IMG/VR virus record: IMGVR_UViG_3300017783_000027
Span: 1-54,818 of that record
Reading direction: 5' to 3' (one strand)
From: a virus
DNA: 54,818 bases
How positions within the stretch are numbered: the stretch's first letter is position 1; each line of letters begins with the position of its first letter. The notes beneath the pieces are model-generated. The model saw only the letters and a program-made list of their open reading frames with translations, did not search any database and was not told the DNA's origin. A program made the position numbers and the translations under genes. Shown piece after piece: positions 2,693 to 49,998 of the stretch.

Positions 2693-3832
2693 ATGGGATT
2701 AAAGACATTTAAAGCAGCGGCCGGTGGGTTATTCAATTCAGCAGTAGCTAAAGGCGCTGAAGTTGTAGGCAACGCATTAACAGGACAAACATCAGGATTT
2801 GACAATCAACAAGGTAAAGTATCAGCCGAGTTGTTAGACAAATCTCCTTATGAAGTACCTGATAGTCCACAAGAGAAACTAAAAAGAAATCCATTAAAGT
2901 TTTCAACAGTACAATATCCACTTGACCTTGGTACGAATGAATTAGGACATTATATTCTATTTCTTATCAAAGAGGCAAGAACAAATAAAGGATATGCCGA
3001 GGCAGACATAGGAAATTCAGTAGGTCAATCACTACACGGAGACCAAGATGGTGCTTCAGATTATACTACTACAGCAAAGGCAAGAAAGTCAAGTATCAAC
3101 GAAACATCAAGTAACGGCTCTGTAAATAGTAGATTACCAGGTTCAGAGAACACAACAGCCGCTATATCAATCTATATGCCACCAGGTATTAAAGTGAGTT
3201 ATGGACAATCATACGAAAGTGAAAGTATGAATTTGACAGGTGATATTATGGCGTCACTAGATAAGGCAGGTGAGGCCGAAACTTCTGCTGGAAAAGTAAA
3301 TGCAGTATTAGAGGGTGTTGTTGGTGGTGGTACACGTTACGCAAAAGGTTTATTATCAGAGGCAGTTAACTTTGCCGGTGCAGGTGACCCCGTAAGATTA
3401 GGTATGAAACGTGCCGGTGTTGCAATGAATCCAAGAGACGAACAGTTTTACAATGCGCCAGAGTATAGAGGTTTTGAATACACATTTGATTTCTGGCCTA
3501 GAAGTAAAGAAGAATTAAAACATGTACAAGATATTATATTCATGTTCAAATATCACAGTGCTCCAGGTTTATCAGCTGAGGGTGCAGGTGCCATGTTCCA
3601 TATTCCTAGTAAATTTGAAATACAATATTTAAATCATGGTAAACAAAACACATATCTTAATAAGATTGCAAATTGTTATTGTAAATCTGTTGCAGTTGAT
3701 TATGGTCCTGATGGTCAAAACTCATTCTTTGAAAGAGATTTCAAAGGTGCTTCGCCTGTACACTACAAAATGACTGTAACATTTATAGAAGACAAATACA
3801 TCACTAAATCAGATATATTAAGAGGTTACTAA
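2693..3832 (+). CDS. gp48: Baseplate tail-tube cap/initiator, gp48/gp54-like
   Basis: A 379-residue protein. The hallmarks are an N-terminal YPLDLGTNELGHYILFLIKE-like segment, a mid-region YEYTFDFWPRS-type stretch (read as FEYTFDFWPRSKEE), and a C-terminus with CYCKSVAVDYGPDGQ followed by HYKMTVTFIED. This matches tube-like baseplate proteins of T4-type marine phages, usually annotated as gp48. T4 gp48 and gp54 are both related to tail-tube gp19 and sit on the hub to start tube growth. Which of the two this is cannot be settled by eye. It follows a TATAAATA element and runs into gp53 (stop and start share bases). Confidence 0.65.
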   Translation: MGLKTFKAAAGGLFNSAVAKGAEVVGNALTGQTSGFDNQQGKVSAELLDKSPYEVPDSPQEKLKRNPLKFSTVQYPLDLGTNELGHYILFLIKEARTNKGYAEADIGNSVGQSLHGDQDGASDYTTTAKARKSSINETSSNGSVNSRLPGSENTTAAISIYMPPGIKVSYGQSYESESMNLTGDIMASLDKAGEAETSAGKVNAVLEGVVGGGTRYAKGLLSEAVNFAGAGDPVRLGMKRAGVAMNPRDEQFYNAPEYRGFEYTFDFWPRSKEELKHVQDIIFMFKYHSAPGLSAEGAGAMFHIPSKFEIQYLNHGKQNTYLNKIANCYCKSVAVDYGPDGQNSFFERDFKGASPVHYKMTVTFIEDKYITKSDILRGY

Positions 3833-11132: not shown

Positions 11133-11762
11133 ATGGAAAAATTTTATGAGGAAGTCCCTTTATCAATTGACATTGACCGACTTGGTAAATCATACTTTGA
11201 TTTTAAACATCATTTAGGTTTTAGAACAGACGACAAACGCAATATAGATTTCAATGCTATTTGTGTTAACAGAATACCTGGTGACGAATCATCTATACAA
11301 GGTGGTAACGTTAGAGGTTTGTATTGGACAATGCCTGATACAACCAATGTAGAAGAACAACGATTAGAACCTGTTAAAGAACATTTATATACTGAAATAT
11401 GTCCTGAATTTAAAGGCACATATATTGAAGAAGTATATAACATCATCACAAAAAAATTTAAATTAGGAAGAGTACGTCTTTTGATGAAACCACCAAGGTC
11501 TTGTTTATCTTGGCATAGGGATCCTGAAATGAGATTACATATTCCTATTATAACTAATAAAGGTTGTATCATGGTAATAGAAGATACAGCGTTTCATATG
11601 CCAGCAAATGGTAATGGTTATATTACAGATAACACAAAGTATCATAACTTCTTTAACGGCTCTGAATTTGATAGAGTTCATTTAGTCGCCACAGTATTAG
11701 AACACAATTGTGGCATGGATTGGCAAGATGAAGTGAAATACGAGTGTTGTAAACTTTGTTGA
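11133..11762 (+). CDS. 2OG-Fe(II) oxygenase, aspartyl/asparaginyl hydroxylase-like
   Basis: A 209-residue protein. LSWHRDPEMRLHIPI carries H128-x-D130, and KYHNFFNGSEFDRVHLV carries the distal His171 and Arg181. This is the aspartyl/asparaginyl beta-hydroxylase pattern. A second copy of the same architecture is encoded at 41727-42512. Several Cys lie at the extreme C-terminus (YECCKLC), which is unusual for the family and could bind metal or form disulfides. Substrate unknown. Confidence 0.7.
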   Translation: MEKFYEEVPLSIDIDRLGKSYFDFKHHLGFRTDDKRNIDFNAICVNRIPGDESSIQGGNVRGLYWTMPDTTNVEEQRLEPVKEHLYTEICPEFKGTYIEEVYNIITKKFKLGRVRLLMKPPRSCLSWHRDPEMRLHIPIITNKGCIMVIEDTAFHMPANGNGYITDNTKYHNFFNGSEFDRVHLVATVLEHNCGMDWQDEVKYECCKLC

Positions 11763-15615: not shown

Positions 15616-17469
15616 ATGGCACAACATAAACTTAAAATATCAGATTTAGATTTTGACCAAATTAAAATCAATCTAAAAACTTTTTTACAAAGTCAAACAG
15701 AATTCCAAGATTACGATTTTGAAGGTTCAGGCCTTTCTATCTTATTAGATGTATTATCTTACAACACACACTATCTTTCATACATTGCTAACATGTCAAC
15801 TAATGAGTTGTACTTAGACAGTGCTGATATTAGAAAGAATATTGTTTCTTTAGCAAAAATGTTAGGTTATACTCCTAGTTCGCCAAGAGCACCTAAATCA
15901 AACATTGATATTACAATTAATAACGCTACAGGCTCAAGTATAACTATGGGCAAAGGTTCGGTGTTTACTACTTCTCTTTCTGGAGAAACTTATCAATATA
16001 TAACTAACGAAGATATTACAATTACACCTGTTGATGGTGTTTACAAGTTTTCAGATGTAACTGTTTATGAAGGCTCACTTGTTACTTTTAAATATACAGT
16101 TGATAGTACAGACGTTGACCAAAAATTTATTGTTCCAAGTCCTAATGCAGATACGTCAACTTTAAAGGTATCTGTACAAAATTCAAGCACAGATACAACA
16201 CTTACAACATTCTCTTTAGCAGGTGGTTACAATTCTGTATCAAATACTTCTAACGTTTACTTTATACAAGAGGGTGACGCAGGAAGATATGAAATTTATT
16301 TTGGTGACGGTGTTACAGGTAAAAAATTACAAGATGGTAATGTTGTAATCATGCAATATATCGTAACTAACAAAACTGCTTCAAATGGTGCTTCTGCTTT
16401 CTCACTACAAGGTGACATTGGTGGTTTTACAGATGTTACAATTTTTACTAACTCGGTTTCACAAGGTGGTTCTGAGGCAGAGACAAAAGATTCAATTAAG
16501 TTTAATGCGCCTTTGCATTATGCAGCTCAAGACAGAGCCGTAACAACAACAGACTATGAAACGATTGTTAAGTCAATTTATCCTAATGCATTATCAGTAA
16601 GTGCTTGGGGTGGTGAAGATGATGAAACACCACAATATGGTATTGTTAAAATTGCTATTAAAGCAGCTTCAGGTTCAACTTTGACTAATCAAACTAAATT
16701 AGATATTGTTAGTTTGTTAAAACCTTATAATGTTGCTTCAGTTAGACCAGAAATTGTGGATCCAGAAACTACTTCTGTTCTAGTAACTACAGTTGCTAAA
16801 TTTGATTCAAAAAATACTGCTAAAACTAAAGATACGTTAAAATCAGATATTATTACGACTATTCAAAAATATAACACAGATGAGTTACAAAAATTTGATG
16901 GTGTGTTTAGATTTTCTAAATTATCAAAATTAATTGATAATACAGACGATTCAATTTTATCAAACTCTACAAATGTTAAAATAAGAAAGACATTAACACC
17001 AACTATAAATTCATCTACGAAATATGACATATATTTCAGAAATGCATTATATAATCCTCATGCAGGTCATAATATGGCTTCTGGTGGTATCTTATCGTCA
17101 ACAGGTTTTAAAATTGACGGAAATGACAATGAACAATTTTTAGATGATGACGGCAATGGTAACGTGAGACGTTATTTCTTGGTTTCAGGTATTAAGACAT
17201 ATGCTTCATCAGCACAAGGTACAATTAATTATGCTACAGGTCAAATCACACTAAACTCTTTAAATATTTCTTCTATATCAAATATTAGAGGTGCAGCTTC
17301 TACGGTAATTGAATTAACTGTAACACCTGATTCAAGAGACATTGTTCCTGTTAGAGACCAGATTATTGAGATTGATACTAACGTATTAAATGTTTCTGCT
17401 GAACCTGACACATTTGTTGGTGGTTCTGCTGAAGCAGGTGTTGGTTATACAACAACAAGTAATTACTAA
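15616..17469 (+). CDS. gp6: Baseplate wedge protein gp6 (baseplate J-like)
   Basis: A 617-residue protein. The start (ISDLDFDQIKINLKTFLQSQ... FEGSGLSILLDVLSYNTHYL) and the segment with APLHYAAQDRAVTTTDYETIV are hallmarks of the gp6/baseplate J family; T4 gp6 is 660 aa. The C-terminal part is beta-rich. gp6 forms the iris ring that opens when the sheath contracts. The motifs, size and position after gp25 agree. Confidence 0.88.
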   Translation: MAQHKLKISDLDFDQIKINLKTFLQSQTEFQDYDFEGSGLSILLDVLSYNTHYLSYIANMSTNELYLDSADIRKNIVSLAKMLGYTPSSPRAPKSNIDITINNATGSSITMGKGSVFTTSLSGETYQYITNEDITITPVDGVYKFSDVTVYEGSLVTFKYTVDSTDVDQKFIVPSPNADTSTLKVSVQNSSTDTTLTTFSLAGGYNSVSNTSNVYFIQEGDAGRYEIYFGDGVTGKKLQDGNVVIMQYIVTNKTASNGASAFSLQGDIGGFTDVTIFTNSVSQGGSEAETKDSIKFNAPLHYAAQDRAVTTTDYETIVKSIYPNALSVSAWGGEDDETPQYGIVKIAIKAASGSTLTNQTKLDIVSLLKPYNVASVRPEIVDPETTSVLVTTVAKFDSKNTAKTKDTLKSDIITTIQKYNTDELQKFDGVFRFSKLSKLIDNTDDSILSNSTNVKIRKTLTPTINSSTKYDIYFRNALYNPHAGHNMASGGILSSTGFKIDGNDNEQFLDDDGNGNVRRYFLVSGIKTYASSAQGTINYATGQITLNSLNISSISNIRGAASTVIELTVTPDSRDIVPVRDQIIEIDTNVLNVSAEPDTFVGGSAEAGVGYTTTSNY

Positions 17470-20091: not shown

Positions 20092-21657
20092 ATGGCTAAA
20101 CAATTAATAGGTATCGGTTCAGTTGCAAATGACGGAACAGGTGATAATTTAAGAGAAGGCGCAACAAAAGTCAACAATTTGATGAACGAATTGTACACTG
20201 CCTTAGGTGATGGTACAAATTTCACATCCGGTACTTTTGCTACTACAACTGCTACACAGGCGTTATCAAACAAAGATTTGACAGCGGCTACTAATACTTT
20301 TCCTACAATATCTATTAAAGATGACGCTTCTACCATTGACGCATTAAGTTTAGGTCAAACTTTAACTTTTGAAGGTGGTACAGGTATTACAACAACAGTT
20401 ACCGACAATAAAGTTTCAATGGCTGCTGAAGTTTCAGCGGCTAGTACAAACACACTAACTAACAAAACAATTAATTTTGCTAATAACACCATAACAGGTA
20501 CGGCGAATGAGTTTAACACAGCAGTATCCGATGGTAGTTTCTCAACAACTTCTGGTTCTGAAACACTAACAAATAAAACTATTGATTTAACGGACAACAC
20601 CTTATCAGGTACAATAGCAGAATTAAATACAGCAATTTCAGATGAGACAGTTGTAGGTAGAGATACTACAGATACACTTACAAATAAAACATTAACATCA
20701 CCAGTTATTAATACTAGTTTAACCGGAACAGCTGCTTTAGATATAACAGGTGCTGGTTCAAAATTCAAAGCCAACTTTGCAAATACGGCTGCTTTACCAA
20801 ATCCAACAACATATCAAGGTATGTTTGCAACCAAGTCCGACACTGCTCAGGCTTTCTTTGCAGAATCAGGTGCTTGGATTTCTTTATTTTCAGAAAACAA
20901 TACAATTCAAGATATTTCAAACGTAGATATTTCCGGTATTGCTGATGGTCATGTATTAAAATGGAATGCGACAAACACAAGATTTGAGTCAGCTGCAGAA
21001 GCAGGTGGTTTAGCAAACGGTGATGATATTGATTTTGGTCAATCAGATATTCAAGACGTAGGTTACATTTCTATGATGTCTCCTAAAAACACTGTAACAA
21101 AAACTTTAACAGTTACAGTTACTTCTAAAACTTCTGAACATTATTATCACTCTGTAGGTTCAGCTAGTGCATACATAATTGACGGCAACCAAGAGTCGCC
21201 TTTATTACAATTCGCTCCAGGTGTTTACAAATTTGACCAATCTGCTGGTACTAATAACAGTCATCAAATTAAATTTTATTTAGACGCAGCTAAAACAACT
21301 TTATATGAATATGGTGTAACATATAACGGCAGTGCTGGTAGTGCAGGTGCATATACACAGATTGAAGTTGATGAAAACACAGCACCAGTTCTATACTATC
21401 AATGTATAAATCATCCTTATATGGGTCACGCTATACAAATGGTTGGTAGAAAAAGACATTTAAAAACATCTATGACAGGTGATGGCTCTGATACAACTTT
21501 AACAATTGAAGCTGGTAGAACAGTAGATGATGTTTTAGTATTCGTAAATGGTATCTGTTTAGTTCCTACAGACGACTATACAATTTCAGGAACCACATTA
21601 ACATTCATAACTGCTCCGGCTAGTTCAGCTGAGGTAGTAGTAAGGTACTTAGGATAA
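20092..21657 (+). CDS. Tail fibre-type protein with a cupredoxin-like domain
   Basis: A 521-residue protein. The N-terminus (LIGIGSVANDGTGDNLREGA) is a conserved virion-attachment segment in T4-like marine phages. The shaft has repeats such as TLTNKTI at several places. From about residue 340 to 450 a domain resembles a cupredoxin: NNSH (His391), then YYQCINHPYMGH (Cys438, His441, Met444). The 47-residue spacing from first His to Cys equals that of poplar plastocyanin (His37, Cys84, His87, Met92), except that Met follows His by 3 instead of 5. The C-terminus (VDDVLVFVNGICLVP) is another fibre module. Copper binding is inference. Confidence 0.65.
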   Translation: MAKQLIGIGSVANDGTGDNLREGATKVNNLMNELYTALGDGTNFTSGTFATTTATQALSNKDLTAATNTFPTISIKDDASTIDALSLGQTLTFEGGTGITTTVTDNKVSMAAEVSAASTNTLTNKTINFANNTITGTANEFNTAVSDGSFSTTSGSETLTNKTIDLTDNTLSGTIAELNTAISDETVVGRDTTDTLTNKTLTSPVINTSLTGTAALDITGAGSKFKANFANTAALPNPTTYQGMFATKSDTAQAFFAESGAWISLFSENNTIQDISNVDISGIADGHVLKWNATNTRFESAAEAGGLANGDDIDFGQSDIQDVGYISMMSPKNTVTKTLTVTVTSKTSEHYYHSVGSASAYIIDGNQESPLLQFAPGVYKFDQSAGTNNSHQIKFYLDAAKTTLYEYGVTYNGSAGSAGAYTQIEVDENTAPVLYYQCINHPYMGHAIQMVGRKRHLKTSMTGDGSDTTLTIEAGRTVDDVLVFVNGICLVPTDDYTISGTTLTFITAPASSAEVVVRYLG

Positions 21658-23049: not shown

Positions 23050-24519
23050 ATGCCAGCAATTATAACTAACAAATTTAGAATTCACAATAGTGAACAATTT
23101 TCAGAGTCTTTTTCAGAGGCTGCTGGAAACACGTATTATCTTGCTATCGGTAAACCTCAACCTTTCGGTATTGCGACAAGAGGTGATAGTAGAACACAAA
23201 ATTTAGGTACTGACACAGCACCAGTAACACCAGGTGATAATAACAATTCACAAACTGTTCCATTTGATGATATGTTGGCAGCTAAGAAGATTACTTCAAC
23301 AGATGTTGCTTTTGTAGCACCAAGAAGAAACTGGACTACAGGTACAACATACGATATCTATAGACACGATTACAACGAATACTCTACAGGTACAACTACA
23401 AACCTTACAGCAAATTCAGGAGCAACGACATTATCAGACGCAAGTTACTATGTATTAACAAGTGCTAGAAACGTTTACAAATGTTTAGATAATGCTAACA
23501 ACACAGCTTCTACAGTAGAACCAACAGGAGATTCTACAACAATTATTACAACTGCTGACGATTATAAGTGGAAATATATGTACACTTTATCAGCTGCTCA
23601 ACAAGCAAATTTCTTGTCAACAGACTTTATGGCAGTTTCTACAAATAGTACAGTATCATCAGCGGCTGTTGATGGTGCAATTAATATTGTAAAAATTAAA
23701 ACACCAGGTTCTGGTGGTACAGACGGAACATTCACTAACATTCCTATGAGAGGCGATGGTACAGGTGGTGTTGTTTCTGTTACAGTTACATCTGGTGCTA
23801 TTACGGAAGTAACAGTTACAAATGTAGGTTCAGGTTACACTTTTGCTACAGTTAGTAATGCACAAGTAGTATCAGCAGGTTCAACAAACTTGGTTGGTGC
23901 AGAATTAGATTGTATTATTGAACCAAAAGGTGGTCACGGTTTTAATGCAGTTACAGAATTAGGTGCTTTCTTTGTAATGTTAAACACATCTTTAGAGGGT
24001 GGAGAAATTACAAACTCTGGTGACTTTACTACATCAAATGACTTTAGAAGAGTTATGTTAGTAAAAGACCCAAAATCAGGTGGTTCGGCTGCAACAGCAA
24101 ATACTTTAAGAGGTACTAAATCAATTGCAATTGCCTCATCTCCAACACCAGGAACATTTACAGTTGACGAAGAAATTAACCAAGCTTCTACAGGCGCAGT
24201 TGGTAAAGTCGTAGCTTGGGACGCAACAAACAGAATTTTGTACTATGTACAAACTAGATATAATGACGAAGGAATTGATACTGACGGAAATCAAACAGCA
24301 TTTAGTGGTGCAAACGTAATTACTGGACAAACATCTAGTGCTACAGCAACACCTAATACCTCTGAAAGTGGTACGGTAAATAATGTTACGTTTACTTCCG
24401 GATATGCAAGTGCAGAAATAGACGCTGACAGTGGCGACATTCTGTACATAGAAAACAGAGCACCAATAACGAGAGCAGCTGACCAAACTGAGAACATTAA
24501 ATTGATTATAGAATTTTAA
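23050..24519 (+). CDS. gp8: Baseplate wedge protein gp8
   Basis: A 489-residue protein. Features shared with T4 gp8: ITNKFRIHNSEQF at the N-terminus, YLAIGKPQPF (30-39), the PRRNW block (91-95), VYKCLDN (142-148), and DYKWKYMYTL (171-180). T4 gp8 is 334 aa and its homodimer joins gp7 and gp10 in the wedge. The extra C-terminal part holds Gly/Ser-rich beta modules. It is followed after 18 nt by the giant structural gene. Confidence 0.75.
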   Translation: MPAIITNKFRIHNSEQFSESFSEAAGNTYYLAIGKPQPFGIATRGDSRTQNLGTDTAPVTPGDNNNSQTVPFDDMLAAKKITSTDVAFVAPRRNWTTGTTYDIYRHDYNEYSTGTTTNLTANSGATTLSDASYYVLTSARNVYKCLDNANNTASTVEPTGDSTTIITTADDYKWKYMYTLSAAQQANFLSTDFMAVSTNSTVSSAAVDGAINIVKIKTPGSGGTDGTFTNIPMRGDGTGGVVSVTVTSGAITEVTVTNVGSGYTFATVSNAQVVSAGSTNLVGAELDCIIEPKGGHGFNAVTELGAFFVMLNTSLEGGEITNSGDFTTSNDFRRVMLVKDPKSGGSAATANTLRGTKSIAIASSPTPGTFTVDEEINQASTGAVGKVVAWDATNRILYYVQTRYNDEGIDTDGNQTAFSGANVITGQTSSATATPNTSESGTVNNVTFTSGYASAEIDADSGDILYIENRAPITRAADQTENIKLIIEF

Positions 24520-40876: not shown

Positions 40877-41679
40877 ACTAAATCAAATGCCCATTTTCTC
40901 TCATAACACCAAAAACATTTATGACATTCTCTGGTGTAGTTATCTGTATCTTTTGCTGTACCTGTACAAGAACGTGTTATTTCAAATAAATCCATAATGT
41001 TATTTTGTTTGTAAATATCTGCTACAAACTTTTTATCTACATTGAGAAATGGTTTGTAACGGTTGTATTTTAATCTAACTCTATTTGTATAATGATTACG
41101 TCTATCTTCTCCTTTATGACCAAAAGTTTCTAGTGCCTCTGGTGGTGGATTACCAGTAAGACCATCTAACATCATAGGTTTATGAAACTTCTTAACCATA
41201 TGTTCACATATTTCATGTATTAAGATTATCTTAGTCATTTGCTTAATACTTAAATTTTTATATTCATCTTTATCTTTTGATAATTTAGGGTCATCTGATA
41301 CACCATCAATAGCCTTTTGTGCTTCAGGCCAATGTTTTTCGTCTCTATCATTGAAATCAAAAGTTTCAATGTCATGTAGATTTGCATGTGGAAATTTATT
41401 TTGAATATACTTAACTATCTTATCAGCTGCGATAGCGTCTTTAAGAGCATTGTTACCAATATCTCTTGCAGTAAAAGGATAGTAATGTAAATTTGGATAA
41501 TGTTTACAAGAAAGATATAATGCAGAGGCAGAATCAGCACCACCTGAAAGTGATACAATTATGTTTTCTGGAAGGCCTTCTGAATTAAGAACGAGGCCTT
41601 TTTTAGATATTGGCGAGGCGTTCATCATCTGTTCCATGTCATAGAATGGTATAGTAATATTATTATATGTTACGTTCAT
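40870..41679 (-). CDS. PP-loop ATP pyrophosphatase, QueC-like zinc site
   Basis: The start at 41679 follows GAGAAG and gives 269 residues, first in the leftward cassette. SLSGGADSASAL holds the PP-loop SGGxDS (45-50), which activates a carbonyl or carboxylate with ATP. The C-terminus has Cys238 and the run CHKCFWCYER with Cys252, Cys255 and Cys258, followed by a conserved Arg, like QueC (7-cyano-7-deazaguanine synthase). The Cys spacing is wider than in QueC. Sugar amidotransferases such as PseA/WbpG also have this loop, and no other preQ0 gene is seen here. A sugar role is as likely as DNA modification. Confidence 0.7.
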   Translation of the reverse strand: MNVTYNNITIPFYDMEQMMNASPISKKGLVLNSEGLPENIIVSLSGGADSASALYLSCKHYPNLHYYPFTARDIGNNALKDAIAADKIVKYIQNKFPHANLHDIETFDFNDRDEKHWPEAQKAIDGVSDDPKLSKDKDEYKNLSIKQMTKIILIHEICEHMVKKFHKPMMLDGLTGNPPPEALETFGHKGEDRRNHYTNRVRLKYNRYKPFLNVDKKFVADIYKQNNIMDLFEITRSCTGTAKDTDNYTRECHKCFWCYERKWAFDLVW

Positions 41680-41702
41680 TTCACTTCTCAATTATGTACT
41701 AC

Positions 41703-41710
41703 TATTTATA
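41703..41710 (-). promoter_or_regulatory. T4-type late promoter TATAAATA (minus strand)
   Basis: Plus-strand TATTTATA, i.e. TATAAATA on the minus strand, ending 23 nt before the PP-loop gene start at 41679. It is the likely single promoter of the nine-gene leftward cassette. Confidence 0.72.
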
Positions 41711-41713
41711 CGT

Positions 41714-41721
41714 CATAAATA
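41714..41721 (+). promoter_or_regulatory. Late-promoter-like CATAAATA, 5 nt before ATG
   Basis: One-mismatch octamer ending 5 nt before the ATG at 41727, the same spacing as at 8669 and 15174. No Shine-Dalgarno is present. It lies back to back with the minus-strand promoter. Confidence 0.5.
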
Positions 41722-41726
41722 TACGT

Positions 41727-42512
41727 ATGTTTAAGAATGAAGCGAATAGGTTTTTTAATGCTAGTGATGATAATTACCAAGACTTTGGTTGGCATGAGTT
41801 TACATTAGAAGAGTTAGGTTTACCACCAGCAGAAGATATATTAAAAGGTGTCAAGGCAATTGAGAAAGAAGTAGGTCTAATTGGTTGGCGAACAAAGGAT
41901 AGTACAAACGAAAACTATAAAGGATTTGGTATTACATATAACCCTACATTTCATAAAGACGAAAATCCACACCATCAAGTATTTGGCTCAAGATTATCTA
42001 CTCAAACATTTGCACAAGACGACCAAGAACATGAACAGCTTGAAAATACATATTATGATACATTTGGTTTTAGAAAGAGAACACCAGAGGTTGACAAACA
42101 TCTAGGTTTTTTATTAGATAGATTTGCCTTTCATGTTTCACGTAGTAGGGTTGGTTATGTATTTGGTTATGGTTTAGAACCAAATCGCAAAGGTTGGCAT
42201 ATTGATGAACCACCACAAATGCTATTAAGAGTTAATATACCTTTACAAACTAGTGATGAATATGTTATGCAGTGGAAAGATAACACTTACAAACTAGAAG
42301 TGGGAAAAGCATATCTCTGGAATACAAGAATTAAACATAGACCAACTATCACACGAAAAGTAGAGACAAAAGAACCTAGAATTAACTTGGTAATTGGTCT
42401 AACACCTTGGTTAACCTACGACCCCGAAATGGATAAATATAGTAAAAATGAGTTATTTGGAAAATCAATCAAAGAGATTGTTGAGAATAAATTATTTGTA
42501 AAAGGAGATTAA
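41727..42512 (+). CDS. 2OG-Fe(II) oxygenase, aspartyl/asparaginyl hydroxylase-like
   Basis: The start at 41727 gives 261 residues; the longer reading from 41667 would cross the promoter. GWHIDEPPQMLLRVNIPL has H158-x-D160, RIKHRPT has the distal His204, and EPRINLVIGL has Arg218. This matches the aspartyl/asparaginyl hydroxylase-like group, as for the gene at 11133. It is divergent from the glycan cassette and may be expressed with the fibre genes that follow. Substrate unknown; a virion fibre residue is one possibility. Confidence 0.7.
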   Translation: MFKNEANRFFNASDDNYQDFGWHEFTLEELGLPPAEDILKGVKAIEKEVGLIGWRTKDSTNENYKGFGITYNPTFHKDENPHHQVFGSRLSTQTFAQDDQEHEQLENTYYDTFGFRKRTPEVDKHLGFLLDRFAFHVSRSRVGYVFGYGLEPNRKGWHIDEPPQMLLRVNIPLQTSDEYVMQWKDNTYKLEVGKAYLWNTRIKHRPTITRKVETKEPRINLVIGLTPWLTYDPEMDKYSKNELFGKSIKEIVENKLFVKGD

Positions 42513-46677: not shown

Positions 46678-49600
46678 ATGGCAGATTTTGTATTAGGTAG
46701 ACTTAAATTCGTATGGAAAGGTGATTGGGCAACGTCAACGGCTTATATTGTTGATGACGTAGTAAAATACGGTGGTAATACATTTGTATGTAAATTCAAC
46801 CATACTTCAAGTGCAACATTCGAATCCGATTTAACAGCAAGTCCTGTTAGGTGGGAAAAAATGGTCTCTGGTCAAGACTACAAAGGCACATACGCAAATT
46901 CAACATACTATAAAGTAGATGACGTAGTAAAATACGGAGCAAGTTTATGGATATGTACAACAGCACACACAAGTGGTGCAACACTAGATGAAACTAAATT
47001 TTCAATCTATGTACCAGGTTTAGAGTTTGAGGACACATGGTCGTCTTCTACTCAATATCAATCAGGTGATATTGTAAACTATGGTGGTTACACTTATGTT
47101 GCTCAACAACAAAATTTAAACGTAGTTCCTACAGACGCTAGCGCTCAGTGGGAAGCATTAACAACAGGTTTCAAACTTACAGGTGTTTATTCTGCCTCAA
47201 CTGCCTATAAAACTGGAGATGTTGTTAAGTACGGTGGTAACACATACGTATGTAAAGCAGACGGATTAACAGCAGGTCAATATTTACCAACAAGTACATC
47301 ACACTTTGATTTACTAGTTGAAGGTATTTCACTAAAAGGTGTTTGGGACGTAAACACATCATATAAAATTGGTGAATCAGTAATTTACTTAAACAGTTCA
47401 TACTTAGCAGTAATTGATAACAACGGTCAAACGCCAGTAGTTGGTGGCGACAGTGGTTATTGGAAACTGTTTACACAAGGTGACCCAGCAGGTATTTTAA
47501 CCACACAAGGTGACTTAATTATTAGGGACGCCGTTGGCGCAACTAGATTAGGAATTGGTCGTGCTGGTGACAGACTTGTTGTAAGTGCTAACGGAAATCA
47601 ATTAGAGTATCAAACACCTACGGCTTCAAACGAAATTTACGTTGCGCCTTCAGGTTCAGATACAAATCCAGGAACAGAATCACTACCTTACAAAACTTTG
47701 AAAAAGGCAGCTTCAGTTGCTCAGACAAATGGTATTTCTCAAATTTCAGGTGTTGCAGGCGGTACCGGTGGTACTCCAAACACATACAGAAATGTTGCGA
47801 TTACAGGTGGTTCATCTTCAGGTGCTACAGCAGACGTAGTAACAGACGGTTCATCTGTAGCTTCAGTTACAATCGTTAATAACGGTACAGGTTGGTCAGA
47901 AGGAAATACTGCTACAATCGCCGGTGCAAATATCGGTGGTGCAACAGACGTAACATTCAGTGTTGAAACAGTACAATTTGGTGATACAATTCGTATGCAA
48001 GGTGGTACTTATGAAGAAGTATTCCCAATTATTATTCCATCAGGTACAACTCTATTCGGTGACTCATTAAGAGGTACTAGAATTGAACCGGCAGCTGGTA
48101 GTTCAACTTCTGTAGCAACTATTGATACAGTGGGAGCTAATGACGCAAGTAGAACACCAGGAACATATACAAATGTTGCTACTACTTCAGCAGGTTCAGG
48201 AACAGGATTAAAAGTAACAGTAGTTGTTGATGGTTCATCAGCGATTACAGTAGCAGTAACTTATGGTGGTGCTAATTATGCAGATAACGAAGTTATTACA
48301 ATTGCAGACACAGTTTTAGGTAACGGTGGTGGTGCTAACTTAACTTGCCAAGTTGCAACTTTACATAATAACAATGCATGTTCAATGTTACTTGTTAACA
48401 ACAGTACATACATTTCATTTATGACATTCCAAGGAATGACAACAGGCGCTAATGTTTGTTCACTTGACCCTAGTGGTTCAATTACAACTGCTTCTCCATA
48501 CATTCACAACTGTACTTCTGTAAACACAGGTACAACTGGTATGTTGATTGACGGATTTGCACAAGCAAGTGGTAACAAATCAATGGTTGCCAATGACTTT
48601 ACACAGATTAACTCAGACGGTACTGGAGTCCTTGCGACTAACGGTGGTCGTGCAGAGTTAGTATCAGTATTTACTTACTACTGTGATAAAGGTTTCCATG
48701 CAACAACAGGTGGTACGCTTAGAGCGCTTAACTGTTCAAACGCATACGGAGAATATGGTGCTCTTGCAGACGGTGTTACTTCAACAGAAACACCAGGTGA
48801 AGTTCAAGCAAGAGGTCATCAACTTAAATACGTTAAATTATCAGGTAATATTGCTTCTGCTACACCAGCAGCCGGCGATAGTTTAACAGGTGCTACTTCA
48901 GGTGCAACTGCTACCTTATTAGGACATGTTGCTTCAACTTTCAAACTTAAATTTGAAAACTTATCAGGCACATTCTTACCTAATGAAACAGTTAACGTAA
49001 CAGGTTCAAGTTCATATAATTTTGTAACAACAAAACTTGACGCTAACCTAGTTGATGAAGCAACAAAAACAATTACAGGTATTACATCTGCTAACCCAGC
49101 AGTAGTAACATCTGCTAATCACGGATTACAAAACGGTACTAAAATTGTTATTAGTGGCGTAGTTGGTATGACAGAAGTAAACACAAATACTTACTATGTA
49201 CAAAACACAGCAACAAACACATTTAGTTTATCATCAAGTGATGACCCGACAGTTACAACTAACGTAGATAGTTCAGCATTTACAGCATACACTTCAGGTG
49301 GTGTAATTACTCCTAAAAATGTAGTTACAGGTCAAACAGGATATCTTTTCCATGTTGACAGTACATCTTCTTTCCTAGGAACAGCAGGTGCAATGGGAGT
49401 TGGACAAAACTTCCAGTTTGCAGGTGATTCACAATATTATCGTGTTACGGCTGCGACAGAAGAAGACACAACTAATAGAAGAGCTTTAGTTGCAATTACT
49501 CCTGAAAGAACATCACCAGTTCCTGATAATACAGAGGCTGATGTAACAAAACTATTCTCAAACATTCGTCTAACAGGTCACGACTTCCTATCAATTGGTA

Positions 49601-49998
49601 CTGGTTCATTTACAGACACCAACTATCCAAATAGTGTAGGTGCAACGCAACCTTATGACCAATCAAGAGAAACTACTGAACAAAACGGTGGTCGTGTGTA
49701 CTACACTTCTACTGACCACTTAGGTAACTTTAGAGTTGGTTCGCAGTTTAAGATTGACCAGGCAACTGGTACTGCTACACTAAACGCAGACGCATTTGAC
49801 CTTTCTGGTTTGACAGAGTTACAACTTGGTTCAATTGGTGCTCAAATCGGTGCAACAATTAACGAATTTAGTACAGACGGTACACTATCAGGTAATTCTG
49901 ATACGGCTGTTCCAACGGAACAAGCAGTTAAGACTTATGTAGATGGTAACTCGTTCTCAACTGGTAAAGGGATTGCAATGGCAATCGTTTTTGGTTAA
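46678..49998 (+). CDS. Large fibre with CBM5/12-like repeats and a beta-helix
   Basis: A 1106-residue protein. Residues 7 to about 270 hold five copies of a chitin-binding-like pattern (WxxxTxYxxDDVVxYGGNTFVC). From about 320, IYVAPSGSDTNPGTESLPYK opens a right-handed parallel beta-helix of the pectate-lyase/DUF1565 type. The 790-890 region has a TSGATATLLG module and an ISGVVGMTEVN unit shared with the 24538 protein, and the C-terminus is MAIVFG. This is probably the main carbohydrate-binding or degrading fibre. Confidence 0.65.
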   Translation: MADFVLGRLKFVWKGDWATSTAYIVDDVVKYGGNTFVCKFNHTSSATFESDLTASPVRWEKMVSGQDYKGTYANSTYYKVDDVVKYGASLWICTTAHTSGATLDETKFSIYVPGLEFEDTWSSSTQYQSGDIVNYGGYTYVAQQQNLNVVPTDASAQWEALTTGFKLTGVYSASTAYKTGDVVKYGGNTYVCKADGLTAGQYLPTSTSHFDLLVEGISLKGVWDVNTSYKIGESVIYLNSSYLAVIDNNGQTPVVGGDSGYWKLFTQGDPAGILTTQGDLIIRDAVGATRLGIGRAGDRLVVSANGNQLEYQTPTASNEIYVAPSGSDTNPGTESLPYKTLKKAASVAQTNGISQISGVAGGTGGTPNTYRNVAITGGSSSGATADVVTDGSSVASVTIVNNGTGWSEGNTATIAGANIGGATDVTFSVETVQFGDTIRMQGGTYEEVFPIIIPSGTTLFGDSLRGTRIEPAAGSSTSVATIDTVGANDASRTPGTYTNVATTSAGSGTGLKVTVVVDGSSAITVAVTYGGANYADNEVITIADTVLGNGGGANLTCQVATLHNNNACSMLLVNNSTYISFMTFQGMTTGANVCSLDPSGSITTASPYIHNCTSVNTGTTGMLIDGFAQASGNKSMVANDFTQINSDGTGVLATNGGRAELVSVFTYYCDKGFHATTGGTLRALNCSNAYGEYGALADGVTSTETPGEVQARGHQLKYVKLSGNIASATPAAGDSLTGATSGATATLLGHVASTFKLKFENLSGTFLPNETVNVTGSSSYNFVTTKLDANLVDEATKTITGITSANPAVVTSANHGLQNGTKIVISGVVGMTEVNTNTYYVQNTATNTFSLSSSDDPTVTTNVDSSAFTAYTSGGVITPKNVVTGQTGYLFHVDSTSSFLGTAGAMGVGQNFQFAGDSQYYRVTAATEEDTTNRRALVAITPERTSPVPDNTEADVTKLFSNIRLTGHDFLSIGTGSFTDTNYPNSVGATQPYDQSRETTEQNGGRVYYTSTDHLGNFRVGSQFKIDQATGTATLNADAFDLSGLTELQLGSIGAQIGATINEFSTDGTLSGNSDTAVPTEQAVKTYVDGNSFSTGKGIAMAIVFG
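46699..47460 (+). repeat. Five carbohydrate-binding-like protein repeats
   Basis: In-gene repeats of about 50 residues each, with conserved aromatic-Thr-Tyr and DVVKYGG segments (the 46678-49998 gene). The fifth is the most diverged. Repetition is at the protein level; DNA identity is limited. Confidence 0.6.

Follow-up and report, generated by a model that had tools for sequence, protein, structure and literature searches.

In cells, type-1 copper domains serve as electron carriers and as parts of enzymes. The locus described here raises the question of whether a site of this kind has also been built into the tail of a phage. It is an ORF in a virus record of 54,818 bases, analysed over its whole length and referred to below as the window. 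An earlier note on this DNA had proposed that the encoded fibre contains a cupredoxin-like domain in which H391, C438, H441 and M444 repeat the type-1 copper ligand order. A conserved type-1-like site in a virion structural protein would be new, and among the open-licence papers searched no title or abstract describes a cupredoxin-type domain in phage tail proteins.

The fibre protein and its genomic setting

The N-terminus of the fibre matches the T4_gp9_10_N family (PF07880; E 1.4e-7 and 32.2 bits, above the gathering cut-off of 25), and T4 gp10 (PDB 2fl8) matches residues 3-66 with E 9e-7. Judging by this N-terminus, the protein labelled a tail fibre in the earlier note is more exactly a gp9/gp10-like baseplate-fibre protein. 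Genes for T4-like baseplate proteins are found in the neighbourhood (gp6-like at 15616 and gp8-like at 23050). The gene order around the fibre is similar in the cultured Pelagibacter phage Mosig, whose "putative tail fiber protein" exhibits 47.6% identity to the 521-residue fibre over 89%. At the other end of the protein, residues 466-521 are matched by the tail fiber protein family phrog_18673 (E 1.7e-6), and this small C-terminal domain resembles the C-termini of other phage tail fibres. The features of the ORF are collected in Table 1.

Table 1. Features of the fibre ORF, with positions in the window.
Feature	Positions	Strand	Basis
gp9/gp10-like tail-fibre / baseplate-connector ORF, 521 aa	20092..21657	+	ORF list, translation, family matches
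N-terminal segment, residues 1-59, resembling the gp9/gp10 virion-attachment region	20092..20268	+	family and PDB matches
Shaft with three TLTNKT-type repeats, at residues 121, 158 and 195	20449..20781	+	sequence repeats
Cupredoxin-like domain, about residues 334-450 (model: 324-453)	21091..21441	+	AlphaFold2, Foldseek, profile match
H350, extra His conserved in the window's own subfamily, not a proposed ligand	21139..21141	+	alignment
H391, proposed N-terminal metal ligand, directly before the strand at domain residues 70-73	21262..21264	+	model, conservation
C438, proposed thiolate ligand, ending the strand at domain residues 110-115	21403..21405	+	model, conservation
H441, proposed second His ligand, CINHPYM loop	21412..21414	+	model, conservation
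M444, proposed axial ligand, CINHPYM loop	21421..21423	+	model, conservation
Small C-terminal domain, residues 456-521, behind the cupredoxin-like domain	21457..21654	+	phrog_18673 match

Elsewhere in the window there are two Asp/Asn beta-hydroxylase-like ORFs (11133-11762 and 41667-42512; PF05118, E 7.5e-9 and 3.7e-5, respectively). Positions 46678-49998 encode a protein of 1106 residues with four CBM5/12 stretches of the chitin-binding type (PF02839, E 9.4e-23), which is possibly another adhesin.

The candidate ligands

The four residues were found at the positions given for them in the earlier note, with a distance of 47 from the first His to the Cys and of 3 from the second His to the Met. 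They follow the type-1 order His...Cys-x(2,4)-His-x(2,4)-Met and, according to the DSSP positions, the Cys ends the penultimate strand. When the fibre protein was shuffled 200,000 times the exact pattern H-x46-C-x2-H-x2-M never occurred, while a loose version of it (gap 30-70, Met 2-4 further on) occurred 108 times. Among all ORFs of at least 60 residues in the window C-x2-H-x2-M occurs only once. Together with the completeness of the set among viral relatives described below, the shuffles indicate that the recurrence of the type-1 order goes beyond chance.

Two arguments from spacing did not survive. The 47-residue gap was correctly counted, but its agreement with plastocyanin is incidental, since the corresponding spacing in homologues is 41, 42, 46-48, 50 or 60, and it was therefore discarded as evidence. 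A His-to-Met spacing of 3 had been taken as a hint of a different metal; this was mistaken, because amicyanin has the same C-x2-H-x2-M spacing, and there is thus no reason to expect another metal on that ground.

H350 was considered as a fifth ligand. It is present in 103 of 104 domains of the window's subfamily and missing from distant members, and was rejected since its conservation is confined to that subfamily.

Conservation of the site among relatives

All four ligands were present in 104 of 104 complete domains, a count that is biased because the loci had been found partly via the ligand motifs. Searches that leave the ligands out gave the same picture. With a pattern from the N-terminal half of the domain the four residues were complete in 79/79 complete domains (three further domains, cut by contig ends, are left out of this count). 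Two non-ligand stretches of the commoner subfamily used as a pattern gave 80/80, these being the best 80 by overall similarity, which may favour conserved copies. In isolated phages, for which plain tblastn and the fetched sequences were used, 17 of the 18 matched domains carry the whole set, down to about 33% identity, the exception being S-CREM1, where the Cys, His and Met of the loop are lost. In an alignment of 28 sequences with a mean identity of 52% eight residues do not vary (G, H, V, Y, C, H, M and G), and four of them are the ligands.

The ligand set is complete in 244 of 258 distinct domains. In the other 14 the Cys-His-Met part is lost as a unit; the first His is gone as well in 10 of these and retained in four, and not one of the 258 domains has Cys-His-Met without the first His. 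The joint loss has a Fisher p of 3e-15, a value that is overstated as the sequences are related; the counts used for the test (244, 4 and 10) include four rows settled by reading the domain sequences by eye. Since the fold family persists in 14 domains without the site, the ligand residues appear to be conserved for the site and not for the fold, and the all-or-none pattern seen in the sequences fits a metal site under selection rather than a requirement of the fold. The conservation in homologues on which the original proposal depended is thus borne out by both ligand-free searches and by the larger collection.

Several phage proteins (those of S-H9-1, S-H9-2, S-MbCM7, S-CAM22, P-SSM7, S-RIM2, P-HM2 and S-RIM44) carry a second, degenerate copy of the domain. 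In the two-copy phage proteins Cys-His-Met is lost from the second copy, or from the first copy in P-HM2. The degenerate second copies are located near ORF residues 854-925 in loci L113, L114 and L115, and the proteins of loci L297, L299, L293 and L296 also have two copies, one of them devoid of Cys-His-Met. In some syn9-like phage fibres a ligand-less copy stands alone within the stretch that was read. In the window the profile built from alignment A5 of the domain family matches fibre residues 334-450 with E 1.5e-36, and a search with a profile for a second copy across the window gave nothing else better than E ~0.1.

Predicted fold

AlphaFold2 models were obtained for the window domain, with 16 related sequences, and for a diverged relative 49% identical to it, with 28 sequences. 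Both models are all-beta, with a mean pLDDT of 91.4 and a pTM of 0.86 for the window domain and a pLDDT of 93.8 for the relative. In the model of the window domain C438 terminates a strand, the loop that follows holds H441 and M444, and H391 comes just before another strand. As far as the model can be trusted, this placement of the four residues is the cupredoxin arrangement.

When the models were compared with the PDB by Foldseek, 49 of the 50 best matches of the window domain had the cupredoxin fold (the exception was an Ig-type receptor), as had 47 of the 50 best matches of the diverged relative. They include multicopper oxidases, NirK, amicyanin, rusticyanin, the purple cupredoxin of Nitrosopumilus and factor VIII, as well as 2vmj, a nitrite reductase with the amicyanin loop CTPHPFM (CINHPYM in the window). 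The matches are distant. E-values for the window domain range from 5e-3 to 6e-2 with query-normalised TM-scores of about 0.33-0.48, and over both searches the scores span 0.33-0.57 with a best E of 5e-3. The domain is accordingly predicted to be a beta sandwich whose nearest solved structures are cupredoxins, an assignment that rests on the all-beta models and the Foldseek ranks, and the dominance of cupredoxins for both the window domain and its diverged relative agrees with the fold first proposed. No single match is significant by itself, as the Foldseek E-values are modest and the sequence matches fall under the curated cut-offs.

The modest E-values, and a few Ig-fold chains within the top 50 matches, would also be expected if the domain were a beta sandwich of another kind, Ig-like for instance, whose four residues agree with the ligand pattern by coincidence. 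We regard this as highly improbable, because the ligands are complete in the two ligand-free searches and are lost in an all-or-none manner, and because cupredoxins dominate the matches in spite of the much larger number of Ig folds in the PDB.

The BFVD matches include giant-virus "Beta-sandwich proteins" (A0A481Z6J5, A0A481Z7Q7 and A0A481YY19) with TM-scores of 0.68-0.71 between predicted structures; these come from pithovirus- and marseillevirus-like giant viruses.

Matches to curated families

A search of the window protein against Pfam and NCBIfam gave no cupredoxin match. Pseudoazurin 3tu6 is the top PDB sequence match for three alignments (E 0.82, 0.12 and 0.14), and the Pfam family that matches most members of the broad alignment is Copper-bind, PF00127 (7 of 28, best E 0.014). 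The gathering threshold of PF00127 was not reached by these relatives, and the window domain itself gave no match to it. Nor was the NCBIfam cut-off of the amicyanin family TIGR02657 reached, the window protein having no match and one relative an E of 0.076. A match to the At5g54830-like family PF25489 spans the whole window domain (21100-21444, profile positions 5-125 of 126) but is sub-threshold, with 21.3 bits and E 2.8e-4 against a gathering threshold of 27 bits; this plant domain may be a distant cupredoxin-like relative. The "tail fiber protein" family phrog_30742 matches all 16 close relatives over the cupredoxin-like domain. The domain is thus covered by no curated family. On sequence and predicted structure the most fitting description is a new and divergent branch of cupredoxin-like domains, found in the tail proteins of marine phages and lying outside PF00127 and amicyanin by the curated thresholds.

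Distribution of the domain

With a query from the commoner subfamily the domain was found in at least 332 of 50,697 phage records, some of the matches being ligand-less copies. The phage matches listed come from Synechococcus, Prochlorococcus, Pelagibacter and Methylophilales phages and a few other marine phages, and nearly all of the listed records are marine. The proteins that contain the domain are fibres, gp9-like connectors, gp7-like baseplate initiators and other structural proteins. A search of a plasmid collection for the domain gave no match.

The domain also occurs in SAR86. An ORF of 188 residues (locus L203:2746-3309) is lipoprotein-like and consists of little more than the cupredoxin-like domain, which in sequence is the layout of an exported cupredoxin. 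Large SAR86 surface proteins with the domain (loci L206 and L207, about 3001-3258) show cadherin-like repeats and a subtilase-like region when read by eye. Genes for phage fibres and for host surface proteins may have exchanged sequence. Some other cellular "genome" matches resemble phage or prophage contigs.

This distribution bears on what the site might do. The ligand-His loop is the face by which cellular cupredoxins dock to their partners, and marine phages have the domain in their fibres, connectors and baseplate proteins; both facts suit a role in host recognition, with the metal or the hydrophobic loop docking on an outer-membrane protein, e.g. a metal-uptake receptor. The domain is, however, also part of the baseplate initiator (gp7), and not solely of distal adhesins, and is found in structural proteins encoded beside neck, portal and terminase genes. 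An iron version of such a route, the "Ferrojan horse", is already in the literature, but in one study iron-uptake mutants were equally susceptible to the phages proposed to use it (PMC10892097). Host recognition as the main purpose of the site is in our opinion unlikely.

A redox role, in which the site takes or gives electrons at the cell surface during infection, is less probable by far. Cellular cupredoxins with the same loop do transfer electrons, but neither a partner enzyme nor a redox gene accompanies the domain, which recurs in structural proteins with differing neighbours.

A proposed metal-stapled fibre module

The reading that we prefer, with a probability of roughly 0.6, is that the window encodes a gp9/gp10-like fibre protein with a cupredoxin-fold module, in which one type-1-like site, probably of copper, serves as a structural staple. 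The module, at about residues 334-450, would lie as an insertion between shaft and C-terminal domain, and H391, C438, H441 and M444 would form one mononuclear site with an amicyanin-type C-x2-H-x2-M loop. Judging from this ligand set, the metal held by the putative site is most likely copper. By joining the loop that precedes one strand with the one connecting the final two strands, the site would close off one end of the beta sandwich; a staple of this kind may lend an exposed module rigidity and stability in seawater. In addition, the H441 loop, which corresponds to the docking face of cellular cupredoxins, may serve as a contact surface for the cell. Fold class, ligand set, all-or-none conservation and placement in virion proteins are supported by sequence and prediction; metal binding, the identity of the metal as copper, stabilisation and docking we infer.

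The surroundings of the metal would not be quite those of the classical carriers. In plastocyanin/azurin-type proteins the first His is followed by Asn. In the present family the residue is usually Pro or Gln, and the second shell would therefore differ from that type. Moreover, fibre assembly takes place in the cytoplasm, which contains little free copper; this implies either loading after lysis or another metal.

The latter would be the case if the cupredoxin-like fold held Zn(II) or some other metal, or were normally empty, so that its role is purely structural and copper irrelevant. Cytoplasmic assembly favours zinc over copper. Type-1 copper proteins, on the other hand, have the Cys-His2-Met set that is invariant here, with its strict loop spacing, and as Met is rare in zinc sites its strict conservation would be left unexplained; we consider a site for another metal, or none, rather unlikely. 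Metals other than copper are structural in phage fibres, as exemplified by the T4 gp37 needle with its seven iron atoms and indispensable His ligands (PMC6957217). Since metal sites that stabilise fibres thus exist, the structural role assigned to the site in the stapled module has a precedent.

Taken together, sequences and models suggest that many ocean phages carry putative copper-binding sites on their tails. A further-reaching claim, which we offer tentatively and with more doubt than belief, is that marine phages of several lineages (cyanophages, pelagiphages and a methylophage) carry true type-1 copper sites on their tails that acquire their metal in the lysate or in seawater, and that the copper is needed for adsorption or particle stability. 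In that case the virions in the ocean would amount to a pool that carries copper, and infection would respond to how much copper is available. Provided that copper is bound, the adsorption or stability of marine phages can be tested directly against copper, with the natural copies devoid of the site as built-in controls. Even without copper, a name and a testable site are gained for a module that is widespread in the fibre and baseplate proteins of marine phages and carries no annotation.

Comparison with known systems

Amicyanin shares with the fibre domain the C-x2-H-x2-M loop (CTPHPFM and CINHPYM, respectively), a single upstream His and an all-beta fold, and its chains are among the top Foldseek matches of the window domain. 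Identity is, however, only about 13-16% over the aligned part, the His-Cys spacing is longer in the fibre, and the first His is followed by Gln or Pro instead of Asn. Amicyanin is also a free periplasmic electron carrier, whereas the present domain is part of a virion protein. Pseudoazurin and the plastocyanin-azurin family (PF00127) provide the best PDB sequence match and the weak Pfam matches described above, but in pseudoazurin and plastocyanin Cys, His and Met are spaced further apart than in the fibre domain.

The best Foldseek ranks belong to type-1 domains of multicopper oxidases and NirK (6ttd, 2dv6, 2vmj and CueO). The His-Pro after the first ligand is reminiscent of the HPxH motif of multicopper oxidases, but the fibre domain has neither the histidines of the trinuclear centre nor a second cupredoxin domain. 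Among phage proteins, phrog_30742 differs in being a large fibre family that carries no domain or metal annotation. A further parallel is found in T4 gp37, where a metal site in a tail fibre is required for folding (PMC6957217); there iron is held between the three chains of a trimer via His, whereas in the domain described here Cys, two His and Met would hold the metal within a single domain.
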